In this document: positions 14,411-21,638 of the stretch, piece by piece | Numbering within the stretch: the first letter of the stretch is position 1 | Layout: each line of letters begins with the position of its first letter | IMG/VR virus record: IMGVR_UViG_3300038652_000237 | Location: 1 to 23,547 of that record | Source: a virus | Reading direction: 5' to 3' (one strand) | DNA length: 23,547 nt | Notes under the pieces: model-generated | What the model saw: only the letters and a program-made list of their open reading frames with translations | Database searches by the model: none | What the model was told of the DNA's origin: nothing | Translations under genes and position numbers: made by a program

Positions 14411-15312
14411 TGGCGCAGACAAGCAAAGTTTCTGGCATCGTTCAGATCGACGGCACACCCGCCGAGCGCACCGTTCGCGCTTTCAGCTATGACTCAATAG
14501 CGCACACCATCGACGGCGGCGAGGTCACGTTAAGCCGAAGCCTCGGCAACGCCATCAGCGACCCAGCCAATGGCCAGTACACCATCGACCTGCTGGCGGC
14601 ATACGGGCAAGAGATATTTGTTGTGGCCTTTGATGATTACGGCGACGCCTTTACCGCAGAGCAGGCGCTGACTGTTGGCGACCGCATCCACCCGACCACG
14701 CCCAACGGGCACGTCTGGGAAACCACAGGAGCGGGCACACTACCAGTCGAGGAACCAACCTGGGTAGTGGACACCGAAACCAGCCAGCTATACGGCACCG
14801 CAAGCATGATAGCCCGGCCCTTCTATCGGCCCATGGTTCACGGGCCAGTAACGCCGGAAGTGACAGGAGAGGCGGCACCGCAGGGCGTTCCTCTGTCAGA
14901 TACATGGCGCTTGTTTATTTATTCAAGCAATGGTGATCCGAGAACCGGAATCGTTGAATGGGAGCTTTATGATCTGTTTGGAGGCAGAGTACAAATTGGA
15001 TCGGAGTCAGCATCTTCAGAATACTCAGAAATGTACGCCGCAGACCTGGCAAACGACGGCGATCAAGGAACGTTATGGCTGTCAACATCCAATGCTGACG
15101 AGTGGCTAAGGTTTAGCGCCCCTGCCGGGGGACCAGTAAAACTGGGATCAATGAAGATCCGGGCGGCGGGTGGTTCCAATGGCTCAGAACTCGCCCCTTT
15201 AGAGTTCGCGCTGGAATATATTGACCCTAATACGAATGGTTTTGTAGAGCATAAGCGATGGACAGAGACTAACTGGCAACCGCTAGAAATCAGGACATTT
15301 AGTTTGGAATGA
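14410..15312 (+). CDS. Probable receptor-binding tail protein
   Basis: This 300-residue protein appears modular. Residues 1-85 form a carboxypeptidase-regulatory/Ig-like beta domain (VSGIVQIDGTPAERTVRAF, GQYTIDLLA, FVVAFDDYGD). The middle is Pro-rich (PTTPNGHVWETTGAGTLPVE). Residues about 185-300 look like a discoidin (F5/8 type C) carbohydrate-binding domain: SSEYSEMYAADLANDGD, TLWLSTSNADEWLRF and a W-R-x-E-like end. That C-terminal part is AT-rich: 26 of 60 bases are G or C in 14941-15000 and again in 15241-15300, against 40 of 60 in 15541-15600. A recently acquired host-recognition domain is the likely explanation. Gene overlaps the next by 4 bases. Receptor binding is inferred from domain type and position. 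Confidence 0.65.
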   Translation: MAQTSKVSGIVQIDGTPAERTVRAFSYDSIAHTIDGGEVTLSRSLGNAISDPANGQYTIDLLAAYGQEIFVVAFDDYGDAFTAEQALTVGDRIHPTTPNGHVWETTGAGTLPVEEPTWVVDTETSQLYGTASMIARPFYRPMVHGPVTPEVTGEAAPQGVPLSDTWRLFIYSSNGDPRTGIVEWELYDLFGGRVQIGSESASSEYSEMYAADLANDGDQGTLWLSTSNADEWLRFSAPAGGPVKLGSMKIRAAGGSNGSELAPLEFALEYIDPNTNGFVEHKRWTETNWQPLEIRTFSLE

Positions 15313-17360
15313 CCTACGCTCCCGAAACCAACCCGCTGGCGGTTGTCCTTGATCTGGGGCAGCCCTACGCCCCGATCCTCGACCCGCTGGCGGTTGTCCT
15401 TGATCTGGGGCAGCCCTACGCCCCGATCCTCGACCCGCTGGCGGTTGTCCTTGATCTGGGGCAGCCCTACGCCCCGATCCTCGACCCGCTGGCGGTTGTC
15501 CTTGATCTGGGGCAGCCCTACGCCCCGATCCTCGACCCGCTGGCGGTCGACTTCGACCTGGCGGCCGTCGACGTTGGCTTCGTTTTCCGAAAGCCGCCGC
15601 TTGCGATCACCTACGGACACCGCAGCGAGCAGGCCAGCATCAAAGGCGTCGGCGCCTGGGCCCTGGATTTCAAGGAGGCCCCGGACAAGACCCCCCCAGG
15701 CAGGGAGCACCAGACGAACCAGGCGCGCGCGCTCACCCTGCCAGGCTACGCCAAGCCCTGGAACCGCGTCGCACCCAAGGACGACCGCGACCGGATACAC
15801 CAGGGCGATAACGCCGACCCGCTGAGGCTACGCGCCGAAGCCGTTGCCTGGAACCAGAACACGCCGCGCGACAGATTCGGCATCCACCCCTGGGGCGCGC
15901 CGGACCCGAAAGACCAGAACGAGCTGCAGGGATTCAACGTCCCGCCGACGCACGACGTCGCGACCCGACTGAGCGCATCCGATAGCGTCCTGAACTGGCA
16001 GCCGCCGCCACCGGTCGCCGTCGAAACCGAGCAAGGCGACACCCTGAATTTATTGTTCAGCCCGTACACGCCGCCCGGTTTCGCCGCCGTCGACTTCGAG
16101 CTGGTACCCGAGGCCCTGTTAGTTGTCGTGGTACCGCCGACCCGCAGCGTCGACGCCCAACAGAACACGCCGGCCTGGTCGCTGAAAGCGGCCCTCGACG
16201 GCCGCACCATCCACCCCTGGGACCGCAAGCCGCGCCTGGGCACTGAGGTCGAATTCCCCAGCGCCGCCGAACCAAACGCGCCGATCGACGAAGGCCCGGC
16301 GGAGCCCGAGAACAAAAGGACGTATTTGATTATGAACGCCAGCAGCCTGATCGAAGTCACCAGCGGCCTGCCGCTCGACTTCAAAGACCTGAGCATCGCC
16401 CTGGACGCCGACAGCTTCGCCTGGACCATGAGCGCGACGATCCTGAACCGCGCCAGCATGGATCAGATACGACCCGGCGCCGACGGCCCGGCCGAAGTCG
16501 AGGCCACCATTAACGGCCACATCTGGCGCTTCGTGATCGAAAGTTACCGCCTGGATCGATCGTTTGCCCGGGAGACGTACAAGGTCAGCGGCGCATCGAG
16601 AACGCAGCTCCTGGCCGCACCCTACGCCCCGAGAACCACCGGGCGCATCGAGAGCCAGCTCAACGCCTACCAGGTAATGAGCCAGCGCCTGCAGTTCACC
16701 GGATTTAGCGTCACCCGCCAGGCCGGCCTGAGCGACTACATCATCCCGGCCGACGCCTGGGGATGGGACGACAAGACCGCGATGGAAGTCATCGCCGAGC
16801 TCGCCGCCGCCCAGGGCGCCATTGTGGTACCGGACAAGGAAACCGACGAGCTGCATATCCGCCACCGCTACAAGCTGGCCGGCCCCTGGATTTATGACGA
16901 CCAGCCGATCACCTTTGTCGATGCCATTCTTCAGGACACGATGATCGTCAGCTACGCCAGCCAGTGGGAGCCGAACCCGGACTATAACGCCGTGTTTGTT
17001 TCCGGCATCACCGCCGGCGTCGCCACCGACGTCACCGTCCAGGGCACTGCCGGCGACAAGCCCGCGCCCGATATCTTCGACGATCTGAACGTCGAGGCCT
17101 TCCAGTGTCGCGAGCGAGGCATGACAGCGATCGCCGCCGGCGGGAACCAGGAGATCGTGACCATCGACACCGTCCTGCCCACCAGCGGGAGCCCCGGCCT
17201 GATCGAGCCCGGCAAGGTCATTGAGTACCGCGACACCCAGGCGCCCGCAAACACCTGGCGCGGCAACGTCCTAAGCACCAGCATCACCCTGGGCAAGCCC
17301 GGCACCGGGAAAGTCATCCAAACACTAAAGGTAGAGAGGCACCACTATGGCAACGGTTAA
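15309..17360 (+). CDS. Tail hub protein with repeat-bearing N-terminal extension
   Basis: This 683-residue protein appears to be a fusion. Residues about 342-683 match the gp27-like tail hub pattern: ASSLIEVTSGLPLDFKDLSI, then ATINGHIWRFVIESYRLDR, YKVSGASRTQLLAAPYAPR, a helix with AMEVIAELAAAQGAIVV, and a final part ending RGNVLSTSITLG. The first 341 residues are an unusual extension: four identical 17-residue repeats (residues 9-76, PLAVVLDLGQPYAPILD) followed by Trp/Pro-rich segments with degenerate IH(P/Q)(W/G) motifs. An internal ATG at 16332, after AAGGA, coincides with the start of the hub part and may be an ancestral or alternative start. Hub proteins form the trimeric centre of the tail tip. 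It overlaps the small gene that follows by 14 bases. Confidence 0.75.
   Translation: MTYAPETNPLAVVLDLGQPYAPILDPLAVVLDLGQPYAPILDPLAVVLDLGQPYAPILDPLAVVLDLGQPYAPILDPLAVDFDLAAVDVGFVFRKPPLAITYGHRSEQASIKGVGAWALDFKEAPDKTPPGREHQTNQARALTLPGYAKPWNRVAPKDDRDRIHQGDNADPLRLRAEAVAWNQNTPRDRFGIHPWGAPDPKDQNELQGFNVPPTHDVATRLSASDSVLNWQPPPPVAVETEQGDTLNLLFSPYTPPGFAAVDFELVPEALLVVVVPPTRSVDAQQNTPAWSLKAALDGRTIHPWDRKPRLGTEVEFPSAAEPNAPIDEGPAEPENKRTYLIMNASSLIEVTSGLPLDFKDLSIALDADSFAWTMSATILNRASMDQIRPGADGPAEVEATINGHIWRFVIESYRLDRSFARETYKVSGASRTQLLAAPYAPRTTGRIESQLNAYQVMSQRLQFTGFSVTRQAGLSDYIIPADAWGWDDKTAMEVIAELAAAQGAIVVPDKETDELHIRHRYKLAGPWIYDDQPITFVDAILQDTMIVSYASQWEPNPDYNAVFVSGITAGVATDVTVQGTAGDKPAPDIFDDLNVEAFQCRERGMTAIAAGGNQEIVTIDTVLPTSGSPGLIEPGKVIEYRDTQAPANTWRGNVLSTSITLGKPGTGKVIQTLKVERHHYGNG
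15331..15546 (+). repeat. 51-bp perfect tandem repeat, four copies plus a partial
   Basis: Identical 51-bp units start at 15331, 15382, 15433 and 15484, with a partial fifth at 15535-15546. They are in frame and each encodes 17 residues. Each unit carries an inverted repeat: GATC-T-GGGGC and GCCCC-GATC around an 8-base loop (15351-15377 in the first). Identity at every base, including silent positions, indicates recent expansion or an assembly effect. Confidence 0.97.
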
Positions 17361-17793: not shown

Positions 17794-18648
17794 TTATGCC
17801 ACTTTTGAAGCGACCTGATCGCCTTCGTCGGGCCCGGCATCTTCGGCCTGGGCATCAGCGGACGGATCCGCATGCGCGCCGGGATCGCCCGTTTCGGCTT
17901 TCGCCCCGACCTGAGCTTCGGCCTGCTTGGTTTCCGCTTTGGTCAGCATCCGGCAGGCCGCATCGTAAGCATTAGCGGGCAAGCGGTTCAGAGTCGGGAC
18001 ACCGGAAACCGCCGTGGCGAACTTGCCAGCGTCGCGGCCCATGGCTTCAATCCGCACCCGAAGCGCGTCGGCCTGTGCTTCAGAGACCACCGGAGGCGCG
18101 ACAGGACCGGCCGGCTTGGCCGCAGGCTTCGCGGGCTGGCGGGCTGGCTGGCGGTTTTGAGGTGGGGAGGACGGCGAATTGTCCTGGCTGCGCGCCGCGT
18201 CGTTGTCTTCAGAGGCGATGCCCAGGATAGACGAGGCATGGTAGCGGCGGGCGTAAGAGATCGCCGCACCGACGGCCTGAGCCACCGACAGGTTCTTCAT
18301 GGTTTCCACCGGGATCGACAACTGGCCCTGCATAAACTGACCAGAGGAGTGCGCCAGCGTGGTCACGATAATAACTTCACCGATGACTTCAGGAGCGAAG
18401 CCCTTGGAATCCGCAGGCAACACCATCCGCTGATCCGGCGGATACATCGTGAAGGTCGGGAACTGAGTCAATGACAGCCCGTTGGCTTCCAGGGCCCCAC
18501 GGGATGCCGCCAGGATTTGCGCAAGATCGGCATATTTGTAGCCGTAGCCCTGCTGAGATTTGCCGACATCCGCGACGGACCCCAGGAAGGATGAGTGAGC
18601 GCTAATCAGCGCGTCGATTCCAGATTCAGAGAATTTTACAAGTTCCAT
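17794..18648 (-). CDS. erf: ERF-family single-strand annealing protein
   Basis: This 284-residue protein has the ERF signature. The N-terminal domain (1-155) includes QQGYGYKYADLAQILAASRG, LEANGLSLTQFPT, TTLAHSSGQFM, AVGAAISYARRYHASSILGI and SEDNDAA. These match P22 Erf-type proteins, which form rings and anneal complementary single strands. Residues about 160-180 are a Pro/Ala/Lys linker (QPARQPAKPAAKPAGP), then a helical segment and an acidic tail (ETGDPGAHADPS). The start overlaps the exonuclease stop as TAATG, with TGAGGTGG upstream, so they are co-translated. The pair should act as a phage recombination system: the exonuclease exposes 3' single strands and ERF anneals them. A terminator follows directly. 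Confidence 0.92.
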   Translation of the reverse strand: MELVKFSESGIDALISAHSSFLGSVADVGKSQQGYGYKYADLAQILAASRGALEANGLSLTQFPTFTMYPPDQRMVLPADSKGFAPEVIGEVIIVTTLAHSSGQFMQGQLSIPVETMKNLSVAQAVGAAISYARRYHASSILGIASEDNDAARSQDNSPSSPPQNRQPARQPAKPAAKPAGPVAPPVVSEAQADALRVRIEAMGRDAGKFATAVSGVPTLNRLPANAYDAACRMLTKAETKQAEAQVGAKAETGDPGAHADPSADAQAEDAGPDEGDQVASKVA

Positions 18649-19934
18649 TAGACCACCTCATTAATGTCAGATTGACCGCGCGCATACGCAGGAATATCAA
18701 TTTCAACCAGGCCGCCGGGATAGGCTGGCCAGTTTTGCGCGTCACGGCAGGCGCTGAACTGCTCCAGCCCGCCGTGGTATTTTTCCCGGGCCCGAGACAG
18801 CAGGGCGTCGGATGCCAGATAGCAGCGCACCGCGAACGGCGCCGTGGTTTCCACAAACACCCAGACGAACTGGTCCGCCGGCTTGCCACAACCCGCCACT
18901 CCGTCCATGTACATCGCCGCCGATACGTCATAGCCATAATTTGAGATAGACCGGGCAACGGCCGCAGGGCGCGCGTCTTCGCAGGTTTTCAGGTCGACAA
19001 TGACGCCGTCGGTTTCGCGGTAGTAGTCCGTCCGGACCTTGCACAATTCGCCAGTGGCCTTATCGACCCAGACGAAAGACTGCTCAGCCACCCCGCCGGT
19101 CAAGTAAAAGGACGCATCGGCGTCGGCTTCGACGGACGTCACCGCCCCGATAGCAGCATCCGCCTGCAGCGGCGAAATGGCCGTCTTGCCTTCGGGCGGA
19201 AGCAGGAGGTCATCCATAAACACCACATCGGCGCCGGCGTTTTCCAGGGCCGCGCGGATATCGGCCTTGGTGGTTTTCGAGGCCAGGTCGATGCCCAGGC
19301 GTTCAGCCGCCGCTTTGTGATCGGCAACGGAATCGATGGCATCCGGAGAGTCAGCCTTCACCGGGATGGTGGCCGCCAAATCTTCCCAATAGACGGCGGC
19401 AACACCGGCGTCGTCTAGCTCCTTCCTGATGTCTGCTTTTTTGGCTTTGCCCGTTGGCGTGAACCCGGCCGCCTTCGCCGCTTCTTTATAGTCCGCGAGC
19501 GAATCCAGGGCTTCGGGATGGCCGGCCTTTGTTGGAGCTGCCGCCGCGAGGTCTTCCCAGAACACCAGGCCCGGATCCGCTGCCTCAAGCAACGGCCGAA
19601 TCTCAGCCTTCGATGTTTTCGAGGTCAGATCGAGCCCGGCTTTCTCAGCGGCATAAAGATAATCGTCGGAAGAATCCAGAGCGTCCGGGAAGTCTTCGCG
19701 GGACGGTTCGACGAAATACAGGGAGTCGAAGGTTTCCGGTTCGAGGACGGCCGCATGGATGACCGTGCCCAGGCTCATGGCGTCGGAGAACTTACGGCGC
19801 AGTCCGTCCATCATCGCCAGGCAATGAGCAGGCGAGCGGCTGATCAGTTCCTTGAGCGTGGTAGAGGACACGCCAGGTCCGCCGTGGTATTCGTCGTTGG
19901 ACAGTTCGGCGTTGCTATAAATTCCGGGCTTCAT
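18648..19934 (-). CDS. RecE-like PD-(D/E)XK exonuclease with three-repeat insert
   Basis: This 428-residue protein resembles RecE/exonuclease VIII-type nucleases (DUF3799, PD-(D/E)XK fold). ATG 19934 is chosen because MKPGIYSNAELSNDEYH is a typical family start and overlaps the upstream stop (TGATG). Conserved elements are VSSTTLKELISRSPAHC, GTVIHAAVLEPE (His60), KVRTDYYRE (Asp303), IVDLKTCED (Asp314, Lys316) and YDVSAAMYMDGV, where the usual Gln of the Q-x-x-x-Y motif is Ser. Between the His motif and the catalytic core lie three tandem 57-residue repeats (81-137, 138-194, 195-248) that resemble HeH/SAP-like helix-turn modules. It should digest double-stranded ends and load ERF. The insert is the odd feature. 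Confidence 0.85.
   Translation of the reverse strand: MKPGIYSNAELSNDEYHGGPGVSSTTLKELISRSPAHCLAMMDGLRRKFSDAMSLGTVIHAAVLEPETFDSLYFVEPSREDFPDALDSSDDYLYAAEKAGLDLTSKTSKAEIRPLLEAADPGLVFWEDLAAAAPTKAGHPEALDSLADYKEAAKAAGFTPTGKAKKADIRKELDDAGVAAVYWEDLAATIPVKADSPDAIDSVADHKAAAERLGIDLASKTTKADIRAALENAGADVVFMDDLLLPPEGKTAISPLQADAAIGAVTSVEADADASFYLTGGVAEQSFVWVDKATGELCKVRTDYYRETDGVIVDLKTCEDARPAAVARSISNYGYDVSAAMYMDGVAGCGKPADQFVWVFVETTAPFAVRCYLASDALLSRAREKYHGGLEQFSACRDAQNWPAYPGGLVEIDIPAYARGQSDINEVV
19191..19694 (-). repeat. Three 57-residue coding repeats in the exonuclease
   Basis: Each unit starts with a (F/H/S)-P-(D/E)-A-(L/I)-D-S motif, then D-x-x-x-A-A-x-x-x-G, (S/A)-K-(T/A)-x-K-A-(E/D)-I-R and (V/A)-(V/A)-(F/Y)-x-(E/D)-D-L. 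Unit spacing is exactly 57 residues twice. Sequences are diverged in both protein and DNA, so the expansion is old, unlike the 51-bp hub repeat. Confidence 0.9.
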
Positions 19935-20113: not shown

Positions 20114-20172
20114 TTGCGGCATTCCTTCTGGTTTGGTTGTAGAGGAAACCGGTAAACCGGATTCGTTGTGCC

Positions 20173-20200
20173 ACTATAACCATTTTACAGGGAAAGTAAA
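20173..20200 (-). promoter_or_regulatory. Leftward early promoter (pL-like)
   Basis: Reading leftward, TTTACT (20195-20200) and TATAGT (20173-20178), 16 bases apart, fit a sigma-70 promoter. A start near 20166 would give a leader of about 40 bases before AGAAGGA. The inverted repeat GTAAA-CCGC-TTTAC (20196-20209) overlaps the -35 box and would allow repression. Confidence 0.6.
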
Positions 20201-20254
20201 CCGCTTTACCGGTTTAATACCGCAAAAAAAATGAAAGACAAAGGTTTTTACCGC

Positions 20255-20283
20255 TTTACCGTATACCGCAATACCGGTATGAT
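20255..20283 (+). promoter_or_regulatory. Rightward early promoter (pR-like)
   Basis: TTTACC (20255-20260) and TATGAT (20278-20283) are 17 bases apart. The palindrome ATACCGGTAT (20271-20280) covers the -10 box. A start near 20290 gives a short leader before the ribosome site GGAG at 20304. Confidence 0.6.
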
Positions 20284-20313
20284 ACCGGAACAATACCGCA
20301 AATGGAGAAATGC

Positions 20314-20733
20314 ATGACCCCTGAAAAACGCGACGCCCTGGACCACGCCATCCAATCGGCCGGCAGCCAGATCAGTTTATGCCGGTTCCTGGAAGTTCCA
20401 CAGTCCAGCTTCTGGACCTGGCATAAGGGCAACGGCCCGAGCCCCGCCATTGTTCCGAAGATGGTCGGACTGGTCTCCGGGGAGCGCACAGCCGATCAGT
20501 TCCGCCGGGACGTTTACGGCTGGCTGGCCCCGCTGAACGATTACCTGAACAGCCACAACGACCTGCCAGAGAGCGCCCGCCTGGCTGGCATCGACCTGAC
20601 CTGGCATCAGATCGACCAGAGCGCCGCCCTGGATTTCCTGACACGCGATAGGGGATGGGGGAAAGCGAAGGCCAAGCGAGCGATCGCGCAACTGGCGGGA
20701 CACCAGCTCACCCAGGCCCCGGCGGTAGCATGA
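20314..20733 (+). CDS. Cro/YdaS-like regulator with C-terminal extension
   Basis: This 139-residue protein is the first rightward early gene. ATG 20314 is preferred to ATG 20302, because GGAG (20304-20307) overlaps the latter and lies 6 bases from the former. Residues about 5-70 form a Cro/YdaS-like helix-turn-helix: LDHAIQSAGSQISLCRFLEV, PQSSFWTWHKG, PSPAIVPKM and ending TADQFRRDVYG, the usual YdaS end. Cro-type proteins normally stop here; this one adds about 65 residues including ALDFLTRDRGWGKAKAKRAI, perhaps a second helical domain. The gene stop overlaps the next start as ATGA. It probably binds the TACCG array and shuts off early promoters. No divergent CI gene is present. Confidence 0.75.
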   Translation: MTPEKRDALDHAIQSAGSQISLCRFLEVPQSSFWTWHKGNGPSPAIVPKMVGLVSGERTADQFRRDVYGWLAPLNDYLNSHNDLPESARLAGIDLTWHQIDQSAALDFLTRDRGWGKAKAKRAIAQLAGHQLTQAPAVA

Positions 20734-21638
20734 GCGTCACGGCCATAGCCTGGGCCTGGAAGCAGCCGATCACCCGGAACCTGCTGCCCGAACTGCTGGC
20801 GCTGGCGGACAACACCAACGACGTCGGCATCTGCTGGGTACGGGTGAGCACCCTGGCCAGCAAGACGAAGACCAGCGAGCGCACGGTCCAGAGGAACCTG
20901 ATCGCCCTACGGGACGCCGGCCTGCTGGAAGTGATCGAGCGCAGGCTGAAAGGCAGCGGCAACCGCTGCAACCTGTATCTGCTGCCCCTGCCCGGGATCG
21001 ACCAGAAAGCACAGCGGGAATTCATCGGGGAAATGACAGCGGGCACCCTGGCGAAAGCAAAAACAGGCACCAGCGACACCAGTGTCACCCAGGGGGGGAG
21101 GGTGACACCCATGTCACCCCGGGGTGACGCCAGTGTCACCCGTATCCATAAGAAGGAACTGTCCCTAAAGGGACTTATTCCTACGCGGGAGGAAAAACCA
21201 ATCGCTCAGGAGCCGAAACCAAGCAAGCCGGCGGCCAGTGGAAAGAGCCTTCTGCCCGAGGGCTGGACGGTACCGGAAACGACCCGGGCCAAACTGCTGG
21301 CGGACGGATGCACCGAGGCGAAGATCGCGGCGCAACAGGAACTGTTCAAAATCTATTGGTCAGAGCGGACGGACAGCGTCGGCAGGAAAGCGAGCTGGAG
21401 CATGGCCTTCATCAACTGGATGAAGCGAGCGGACAAAGAAAAGGCCGCGTCCTCAGAAGACGCAGCCCATTCAACAAACCAACCAAACCGGAGCAATTAT
21501 GGCACCTACCCACGGAAGCAATCAAGCGCTGGGCTCTTTGGTCAACTCGCTGAGCGACAGCAAGCGAACCAGCGACGCCAACAGCAACAGCCCGAAAAAA
21601 CCGGCGACTGGATCGAGGCGCACTACGAACGAACCTAG
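20730..21638 (+). CDS. O-like replication initiation protein
   Basis: This 302-residue protein starts at ATG 20730, overlapping the regulator stop. Residues 5-90 form a winged helix: LLPELLALADNTNDVGICWV, VSTLASKTKTSERTVQRNL, LRDAGLLEVIERR, NRCNLYLL. This is the N-terminal domain type of lambda O-like initiators. The central part (residues about 110-145) is low complexity, TSVTQGGRVTPMSPRGD, and is encoded by the iteron cluster. Residues about 165-235 have a DnaT-like pattern ending SWSMAFINWMKR. The tail is Gln/Arg-rich. It should bind the internal origin sites and recruit the P-like loader. It overlaps the P gene by 140 bases. Confidence 0.82.
   Translation: MSVTAIAWAWKQPITRNLLPELLALADNTNDVGICWVRVSTLASKTKTSERTVQRNLIALRDAGLLEVIERRLKGSGNRCNLYLLPLPGIDQKAQREFIGEMTAGTLAKAKTGTSDTSVTQGGRVTPMSPRGDASVTRIHKKELSLKGLIPTREEKPIAQEPKPSKPAASGKSLLPEGWTVPETTRAKLLADGCTEAKIAAQQELFKIYWSERTDSVGRKASWSMAFINWMKRADKEKAASSEDAAHSTNQPNRSNYGTYPRKQSSAGLFGQLAERQQANQRRQQQQPEKTGDWIEAHYERT
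21075..21141. other. Candidate replication origin: GTGTCACCC iteron cluster
   Basis: Five copies of GTGTCACCC or its complement lie at 21082-21090 (+), 21100-21108 (-), 21111-21119 (+), 21121-21129 (-, one or two mismatches) and 21133-21141 (+). The inverted repeat GACAC-CA-GTGTC (21075-21086) includes the first. As in lambda, the sites sit inside the initiator gene. The origin role is inferred. Confidence 0.7.
21154..21182. other. Dyad beside the iteron cluster
   Basis: GTCCC (21161-21165) and GGGAC (21170-21174) flank TAAA, with outer arms AGGAA (21154-21158) and TTCCT (21178-21182). It lies 12 bases after the last iteron in a relatively AT-rich stretch, so it may be part of the origin or an mRNA hairpin. 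Confidence 0.45.

Follow-up and report, generated by a model that had tools for sequence, protein, structure and literature searches.

Closest described systems

Phage recombination and recombineering are driven by pairs of an exonuclease and an annealing protein. The closest described nuclease is RecE (exonuclease VIII) of E. coli, which Zhang et al. reportedly described in 2009 as a tetrameric ring. The RecE of phage HK225 (locus L015 of our set) carries a SAP-like stretch and a long insert between its catalytic His and D-x-K motifs (a 254-residue segment). At the same site, two or more HeH/SAP-like modules are present in the Jilinvirus-like phages MQ-4, Arya, Alux-21, Mano, Persinger, FoX5, Mica, and PPpW-3 (a loose group name, Jilinvirus being given in Arya's record only), in which a relative of the AAA_24 ATPase is found near the exonuclease. 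SAP domains (PF02037) have been solved for MKL1 (2kvu) and SF3B2 (2do5), and the SAP domain of Ku70 is described in the available part of its source as increasing the affinity for DNA of an end-loading ring (PMC11936186).

The exonuclease analysed here is encoded in a virus record of 23.5 kb, hereafter the window. It agrees with E. coli RecE (3h4r) in its fold, in the order of its motifs, and in its catalytic residues, but carries an array of three SAP/HeH-like repeats at a site where E. coli RecE (locus L185) has no array and a basic NRRTNAGK-like loop, and it has Ser in place of Gln in the QxxxY motif. HK225 RecE shares the SxxxY form with it, whereas the modules of HK225 RecE belong to a different and more diverged type (SAP score 12.0, under the Pfam cut-off) and its neighbour is RecT rather than the ERF protein of the window. 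In the Jilinvirus-like phages, the units are irregular and give weak signals, while those of the window are regular repeats of 57 residues. Compared with the SAP domain, the window units have about two extra loop residues and have diverged too far to match the Pfam model. The likeness to Ku70, as far as the available part of its source goes (PMC11936186), would lie in a SAP module borne by a ring loading on DNA ends; however, Ku70 is an end-binding protein with one C-terminal module, whereas the window has an internal array in a nuclease, and the host proteins are unrelated. A search of the open-access literature found no description of SAP modules in RecE-type exonucleases.

The exonuclease and its active site

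The exonuclease gene occupies positions 18648..19934 of the minus strand, on which all features of the operon described below are also located, starts with an ATG at 19934, and encodes a protein of 428 aa. Profiles and a match of the core structure assign it to the RecE-type exonucleases (exonuclease VIII, PF12684/phrog_412) of the PD-(D/E)XK group: its score with PF12684 is over the cut-off (100 bits versus 26, E 2.2e-28), the exonuclease VIII profile phrog_412 matches at E 8e-73, and the solved relative RecE 3h4r was detected at E 1e-15. The catalytic H, D, and D-x-K residues are all present. His60 of motif Ia (19755..19757), located upstream of the insert, is invariant in an alignment of 53 sequences (A2); in the catalytic core D303...D314-L-K316 (18987..19028), downstream of the insert, D314 and K316 are likewise invariant and D303 is conserved in at least 90% of the sequences.

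The Gln of the QxxxY motif is replaced by Ser338 (S338-x-x-x-Y342, 18909..18923), as seen from the sequence and the alignment. Q and Y occupy this site in 207 of 223 distinct sequences, and S and Y in four, namely the window, its twin L001, L143 from Acinetobacter, and HK225 RecE; seven sequences fell outside the search pattern and five have other letters, some of which represent a shifted match. Since members of the family vary at this position and everything else tested is present, Ser338 is considered a within-family variant, and since it is common to HK225 RecE, which sits beside RecT, it is not in itself a sign of a dead enzyme.

Three 57-residue repeats form the insert

The array covers residues 85–255 (19170-19682) and consists of three units of exactly 57 residues, defined by self-matching: unit 1 (residues 85–141, 19512..19682; helices 89–98, 109–119, and 126–131), unit 2 (residues 142–198, 19341..19511; helices 146–155, 166–175, and 183–188), and unit 3 (residues 199–255, 19170..19340; helices 203–212, 223–232, and 240–243). 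The ungapped self-match score is 249 at a lag of 57 residues and 134 at a lag of 114, while the maximum in 500 shuffled sequences was 52. Pairwise amino acid identities between the units are 29, 25, and 22 of 57, and the K-x-x-K-A-(E/D)-I-R helix occurs in all three (KTSKAEIR, KAKKADIR, and KTTKADIR). Most of what the preliminary description had noticed was thus borne out: three 57-residue repeats in a RecE-like exonuclease, placed at 19191-19694 (correct within about 20 bases) and parting the His motif (H60) from the D...DLK core (D303, D314, and K316), a basic helix in each of them, and a genuine, albeit rare (4/223, HK225 RecE included), Ser for Gln exchange in Q-x-x-x-Y.

At the nucleotide level, the units share 86–94 of 171 positions, and only 19–21 of 57 third codon positions match, which points to an old duplication with the protein pattern kept. 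Recent slippage of a DNA repeat was ruled out by these third positions and by Tandem Repeats Finder, which did not list the array even at a score of 30. Gly20 and Lys29 of the unit are identical in 14 of 14 aligned units. The net charge of the units is -6, -3, and -4, and that of the insert as a whole (residues 81–255) is -15. Comparison with L001, the same virus from another metagenome, revealed 15 codon changes in the exonuclease, three of which fall in the insert, making up 41% of its length; the insert therefore decays no faster than the rest of the protein. Another sequence, L003, looked like a natural one-unit allele (DYPD followed directly by unit 3), but was set aside, its DNA fitting a contig that happens to begin where unit 2 passes into unit 3, one base being changed.

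An AlphaFold2 model of the exonuclease, built on the alignment of 53 sequences, has a nuclease core with pLDDT mostly of 95–99, which superimposes on RecE 3h4r with Z 23.6 and rmsd 2.8 over 212 aligned residues. Each repeat is modelled as a helix, a loop of about 10 residues, a helix, and a short helix, an order of helix, extended loop, and helix that is seen in the SAP fold; unit 2 is modelled best (pLDDT about 88–92), and the linker at residues 191–200 has pLDDT <50. According to this model, the repeats stand outside the nuclease fold; the structure prediction proposed earlier as a check therefore yields a RecE core separate from the repeats rather than repeats that are part of the ordinary fold. 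A single unit modelled alone had pLDDT 78.7. Foldseek found nothing significant with it (no E <0.69), and all six entries with Z of at least 2 were Rho N-terminal or MANF/CDNF SAP-type domains, with weak Z values of 2.0–2.8.

Kinship of the repeats to SAP and HeH modules

Searched individually against Pfam, none of the three window units matched any family at E up to 10, and because of the lack of a direct match they are called SAP-like here rather than SAP domains. Matches of the insert to HMGL-like, Ldr_toxin, and other Pfam families were below the cut-offs and are attributed to chance. In profile comparisons, the window-unit profile matched that of eight single-copy modules of relatives with a score of 46.0 and a probability of 96.4, and that of the units of L110, a homologue from a Methylobacillus MAG, with a score of 36.1, while the best of 100 column-shuffled control profiles reached 15.2 and 16.3, respectively. 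A profile of nine single-copy modules, built with the window left out, detected the three window units in register at E 0.0054, 0.19, and 0.0058, the best E in reversed and shuffled controls being 1.2.

The single-copy modules in turn lead to the SAP family. Among 13 relatives scanned, with single or multiple copies, four exceed the Pfam cut-off for SAP (23.9) at the insert site, with scores of 32.9 (L069), 32.8 (L117), 32.7 (L202), and 25.6 (L006); SAP was detected under the cut-off in five (L121, L010, L014, L015, and L206), HeH only, also under the cut-off, in two (L251 and L265), and neither of them in two (L110 and L018). The cut-off of HeH/LEM (PF12949, 28.9) was reached neither by the relatives, the best of which scored 15.8 (L265), nor by the window units, which gave no match. 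The profile of single-copy modules matched the solved SAP domains of MKL1 (2kvu, E 9e-6) and SF3B2 (2do5, E 3e-4). The window-unit profile itself, searched against solved chains, matched designed helical repeats (E 0.031) and no SAP-type chain, which counts against the SAP reading and is overcome only through the transitive route. By this transitive argument through single-module relatives, we regard the units as diverged SAP/HeH modules. The module type suggested in the preliminary description thus stands by profile comparison via relatives, and not by a Pfam match of the window units themselves; the search with a single repeat that it proposed gives no Pfam family for the units alone and does match the modules of single-copy relatives.

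The insert (19170-19682, unit 3 above all) also matches PHROG profiles, in most cases at the C termini of phage families that are unrelated, including phrog_3281 endonuclease VII (unit 3, E 5.4e-8), an Arc-like repressor, and a connector, as if SAP-type tails were a common phage accessory.

A site of variable module number among relatives

At least 272 loci of relatives were collected; 11 without a clear His-to-DxK segment were left out and 223 distinct segments were kept, a sample drawn from among the matches listed and biased to kin of the query. Copy classes were assigned from the length of the His-to-D-x-K segment rather than with a module detector. In the Jilinvirus-like phages, the modules are weak. 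The segments fall into classes of up to 132 (181 sequences), 145–150 (15), 175–221 (18), and 254–275 residues (9), which are read as zero, one, two, and three or more modules; the segment of L089 (175) ends at a false D-x-K match, and two of the nine sequences in the highest class belong to the window's own virus. Counting of units in relatives, another check proposed earlier, thus reveals that copy number varies.

On a tree of cores without the insert, which is of a quick kind with many open forks, the copy class changes at least 13 times. L110 carries three modules of its own, and its units form a clade (95/93 support) separate from that of the window units (98/94), which indicates that the two triplications were separate, unless gene conversion keeps the units alike; a topology with the window and L110 units in one clade was not rejected (p 0.415). 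L115, the supported sister of L110, has zero modules, and L008/L118 is another close pair with and without an array. In Arya (L010) and Alux-21 (L007), the cores are nearly the same, and the main difference is two clean insertions in the insert region. A tblastn search for the window insert in phages returned four Vibrio phages only, at E 2, and a search of viral contigs returned the same virus only.

Copy-number polymorphism of the HK225-type RecE in E. coli was also considered, and none was seen among the matches listed. This RecE matched in 58 of 5426 E. coli genomes, 54 of them covering at least 80% of the query; among the 25 matches listed, coverage was 100% (rounded) in 22, with identities of 81–100%, and 94%, 68%, and 10% in one each.

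Judged from these comparisons, the insert site is a plug-in point just past the motif-Ia His helix, at which modules are gained, multiplied, or lost.

The array and the basic loop

Most zero-module enzymes have a short basic stretch at this site (xRRTKxGK, such as DRRTKAGK). A broad motif for it was found in 128 of 181 sequences without modules and in none of 42 with modules, and a strict motif in 99/181 and 0/42, respectively; when a less stringent pattern was applied to a longer stretch, the counts were 129/181 and 5/42, all five belonging to the two-module class. In three supported independent pairs, the broad motif ran opposite to the modules in an average of 2.6 and parallel to them in none, a number of pairs too small for the exclusion to reach significance on the tree. 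The array and the short basic loop thus appear, from the absence of co-occurrence in 42 sequences by the broad motif, to exclude each other. Linkers that contain modules are, on average, more acidic than the loop region whose place they take. According to the available part of the MGME1 study (PMC6237815), apo MGME1 has a disordered loop following the His helix, adjoining the DNA-holding arch, and in RecE the arch region is also disordered. Motif order would place the insert at this MGME1/RecE loop, beside the arch.

Gene neighbours

The gene following the exonuclease encodes an ERF single-strand annealing protein (17794..18648, minus strand; PF04404, E 4.5e-20), the start codon of which overlaps the exonuclease stop codon by one base, and the position of the two genes suggests a common operon. 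Elsewhere, the neighbours of module-bearing exonucleases are AAA_24, RecT, phrog_11517, phrog_3657, or none recognised. Neighbours were searched for with three queries only (the window ERF, HK225 RecT, and the Alux-21 ATPase) and in the flanks, so other annealing proteins would be missed, and within this search a recognised ERF was found beside the exonuclease of the window's virus only, among 42.

An AAA_24 ATPase relative (E up to 1e-3) lies near 32 of 42 exonucleases with modules versus 11 of 181 without. This link, strong in raw counts, was set aside, since it was not seen once kinship was allowed for: in three independent pairs, too few to show a link, it ran the same way in 0.2 and the other way in 0.1. 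In Roseobacter-group single-module loci, a phrog_11517 protein is encoded directly downstream (L117:3449-4078, L121:3487-4113, and L114:3406-4077) and is a candidate partner of the single-module exonuclease.

Other repeats in the window

Three palindromic repeats (GGTGACACC..TGTCACC) are located at 21075-21146, inside an ORF of the plus strand (20655-21638) that closely follows a small repressor-like gene. The O gene of phage lambda contains iterons, and by analogy these iteron-like repeats are possibly a replication origin. Dense direct and inverted repeats of ACCG type (ACCGCTTTACCG and ATACCGCAA) at 20146-20304, between the exonuclease operon and a divergent gene at 20302-20733, look like an operator region. 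At 20230, the same virus from other metagenomes (L001 and L002) has about 247 extra bases. Identity to the window reaches 99% to one side of this point, is 96% over the exonuclease, and falls to about 80% beyond it (L002), a mosaic pattern. At the start of ORF 15309-17360, 4.3 perfect copies of a 51-base repeat (15331-15547) encode a 17-residue protein repeat, and the perfect identity of the copies suggests recent expansion.

Possible role of the array

The reading that we favour, and to which we give about even chances, is that the array of SAP-family modules replaced the basic loop and helps the predicted ring nuclease to catch and hold DNA ends. The exonuclease and ERF would form a phage pair, with three SAP-family modules at a fixed site of the nuclease. 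In several lineages, the basic loop would have been swapped for one or more SAP modules, with copies later added or lost. With three modules per subunit, a tetrameric ring would carry twelve flexibly tethered modules round it. Such modules could catch duplex DNA near an end, help to thread it into the ring, and then keep it there, so that a flexible SAP string beside the DNA entrance would take over and extend the job of the basic loop. DNA handling would be the most likely action of the array, by analogy with the Ku SAP domain, which Fulnecek et al. are said to have studied in 2023 and which is reported to raise the hold on DNA. DNA contact, ring formation by the window exonuclease, and an effect on loading or processivity are what we infer. 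The extra DNA grip or processivity clamp suggested in the preliminary description would be plausible. The net acidic units (-6, -3, and -4) weigh against a simple electrostatic grip, and the weak fold matches to MANF/CDNF, in which the SAP-type domain is seen in contact with a protein (BiP), speak against a DNA-contacting role.

The same matches to MANF/CDNF, as SAP-type folds that can bind proteins, and the acidity of the array are in line with a role in partner docking, where the array would be an arm tethering ERF or another recombination or replication protein and handing over the 3' strand as it is made. The one-base overlap of the exonuclease and ERF genes and the raw AAA_24 counts point the same way. 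However, the AAA_24 link is not seen in the three pairs with kinship allowed for, and the neighbours differ, so that modules of one family would need unrelated partners. The earlier suggestion of a binding site for ERF in particular is not supported on the latter point, the same modules occurring beside an AAA_24 ATPase, RecT, or neighbours of unknown family, with ERF in one of 42. Docking as a whole is rather unlikely, and ERF as the docked partner is conceivable but not the reading that we prefer.

The loop past motif Ia may simply take insertions, and a captured module could have been duplicated there without much function. Disorder of the corresponding loop in apo MGME1 and of the arch region in RecE, as given in the available part of PMC6237815, and the changes of copy class on the tree (at least 13) would suit such tolerance. 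Nevertheless, separate lineages bear modules of the same family and not random sequence, Gly20 and Lys29 are kept throughout the aligned units, the insert is no less conserved than the core between the window and L001, the length of the HK225-type insert region is kept in 22 of the 25 listed E. coli genomes at 81–100% identity, and the basic loop (broad motif) is absent from all module-bearing sequences, making tolerated surface expansion improbable. We give still less credence to an oligomer or gate element, in which the units would pack against adjacent subunits or across the entrance of the ring and set ring stability or substrate choice: by motif order, the array emerges beside the arch that shapes the substrate cleft of the family (PMC6237815, available part), but the linker between units is predicted to be flexible in the AlphaFold2 model.

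Implications

Among the sequences compared, the window exonuclease is one case of an exchange that has recurred, together with amplification, at one fixed site. More tentatively, and with the odds somewhat against it, one could propose that RecE-type exonucleases own an evolvable DNA-capture port, in which the loop is swapped for SAP arrays of one to about four modules, independently amplified, to give a ring nuclease crowned with as many as twelve tethered DNA-binding modules or even more, the copy number tuning end loading and processivity. The exchange of loop and array would also hint at the job of the conserved basic loop of RecE. The natural series of zero, one, two, and three or more modules of a DNA-binding type represents a ready-made experiment on what determines how ring nucleases load and how processive they are, and a simple means of adjusting both properties.
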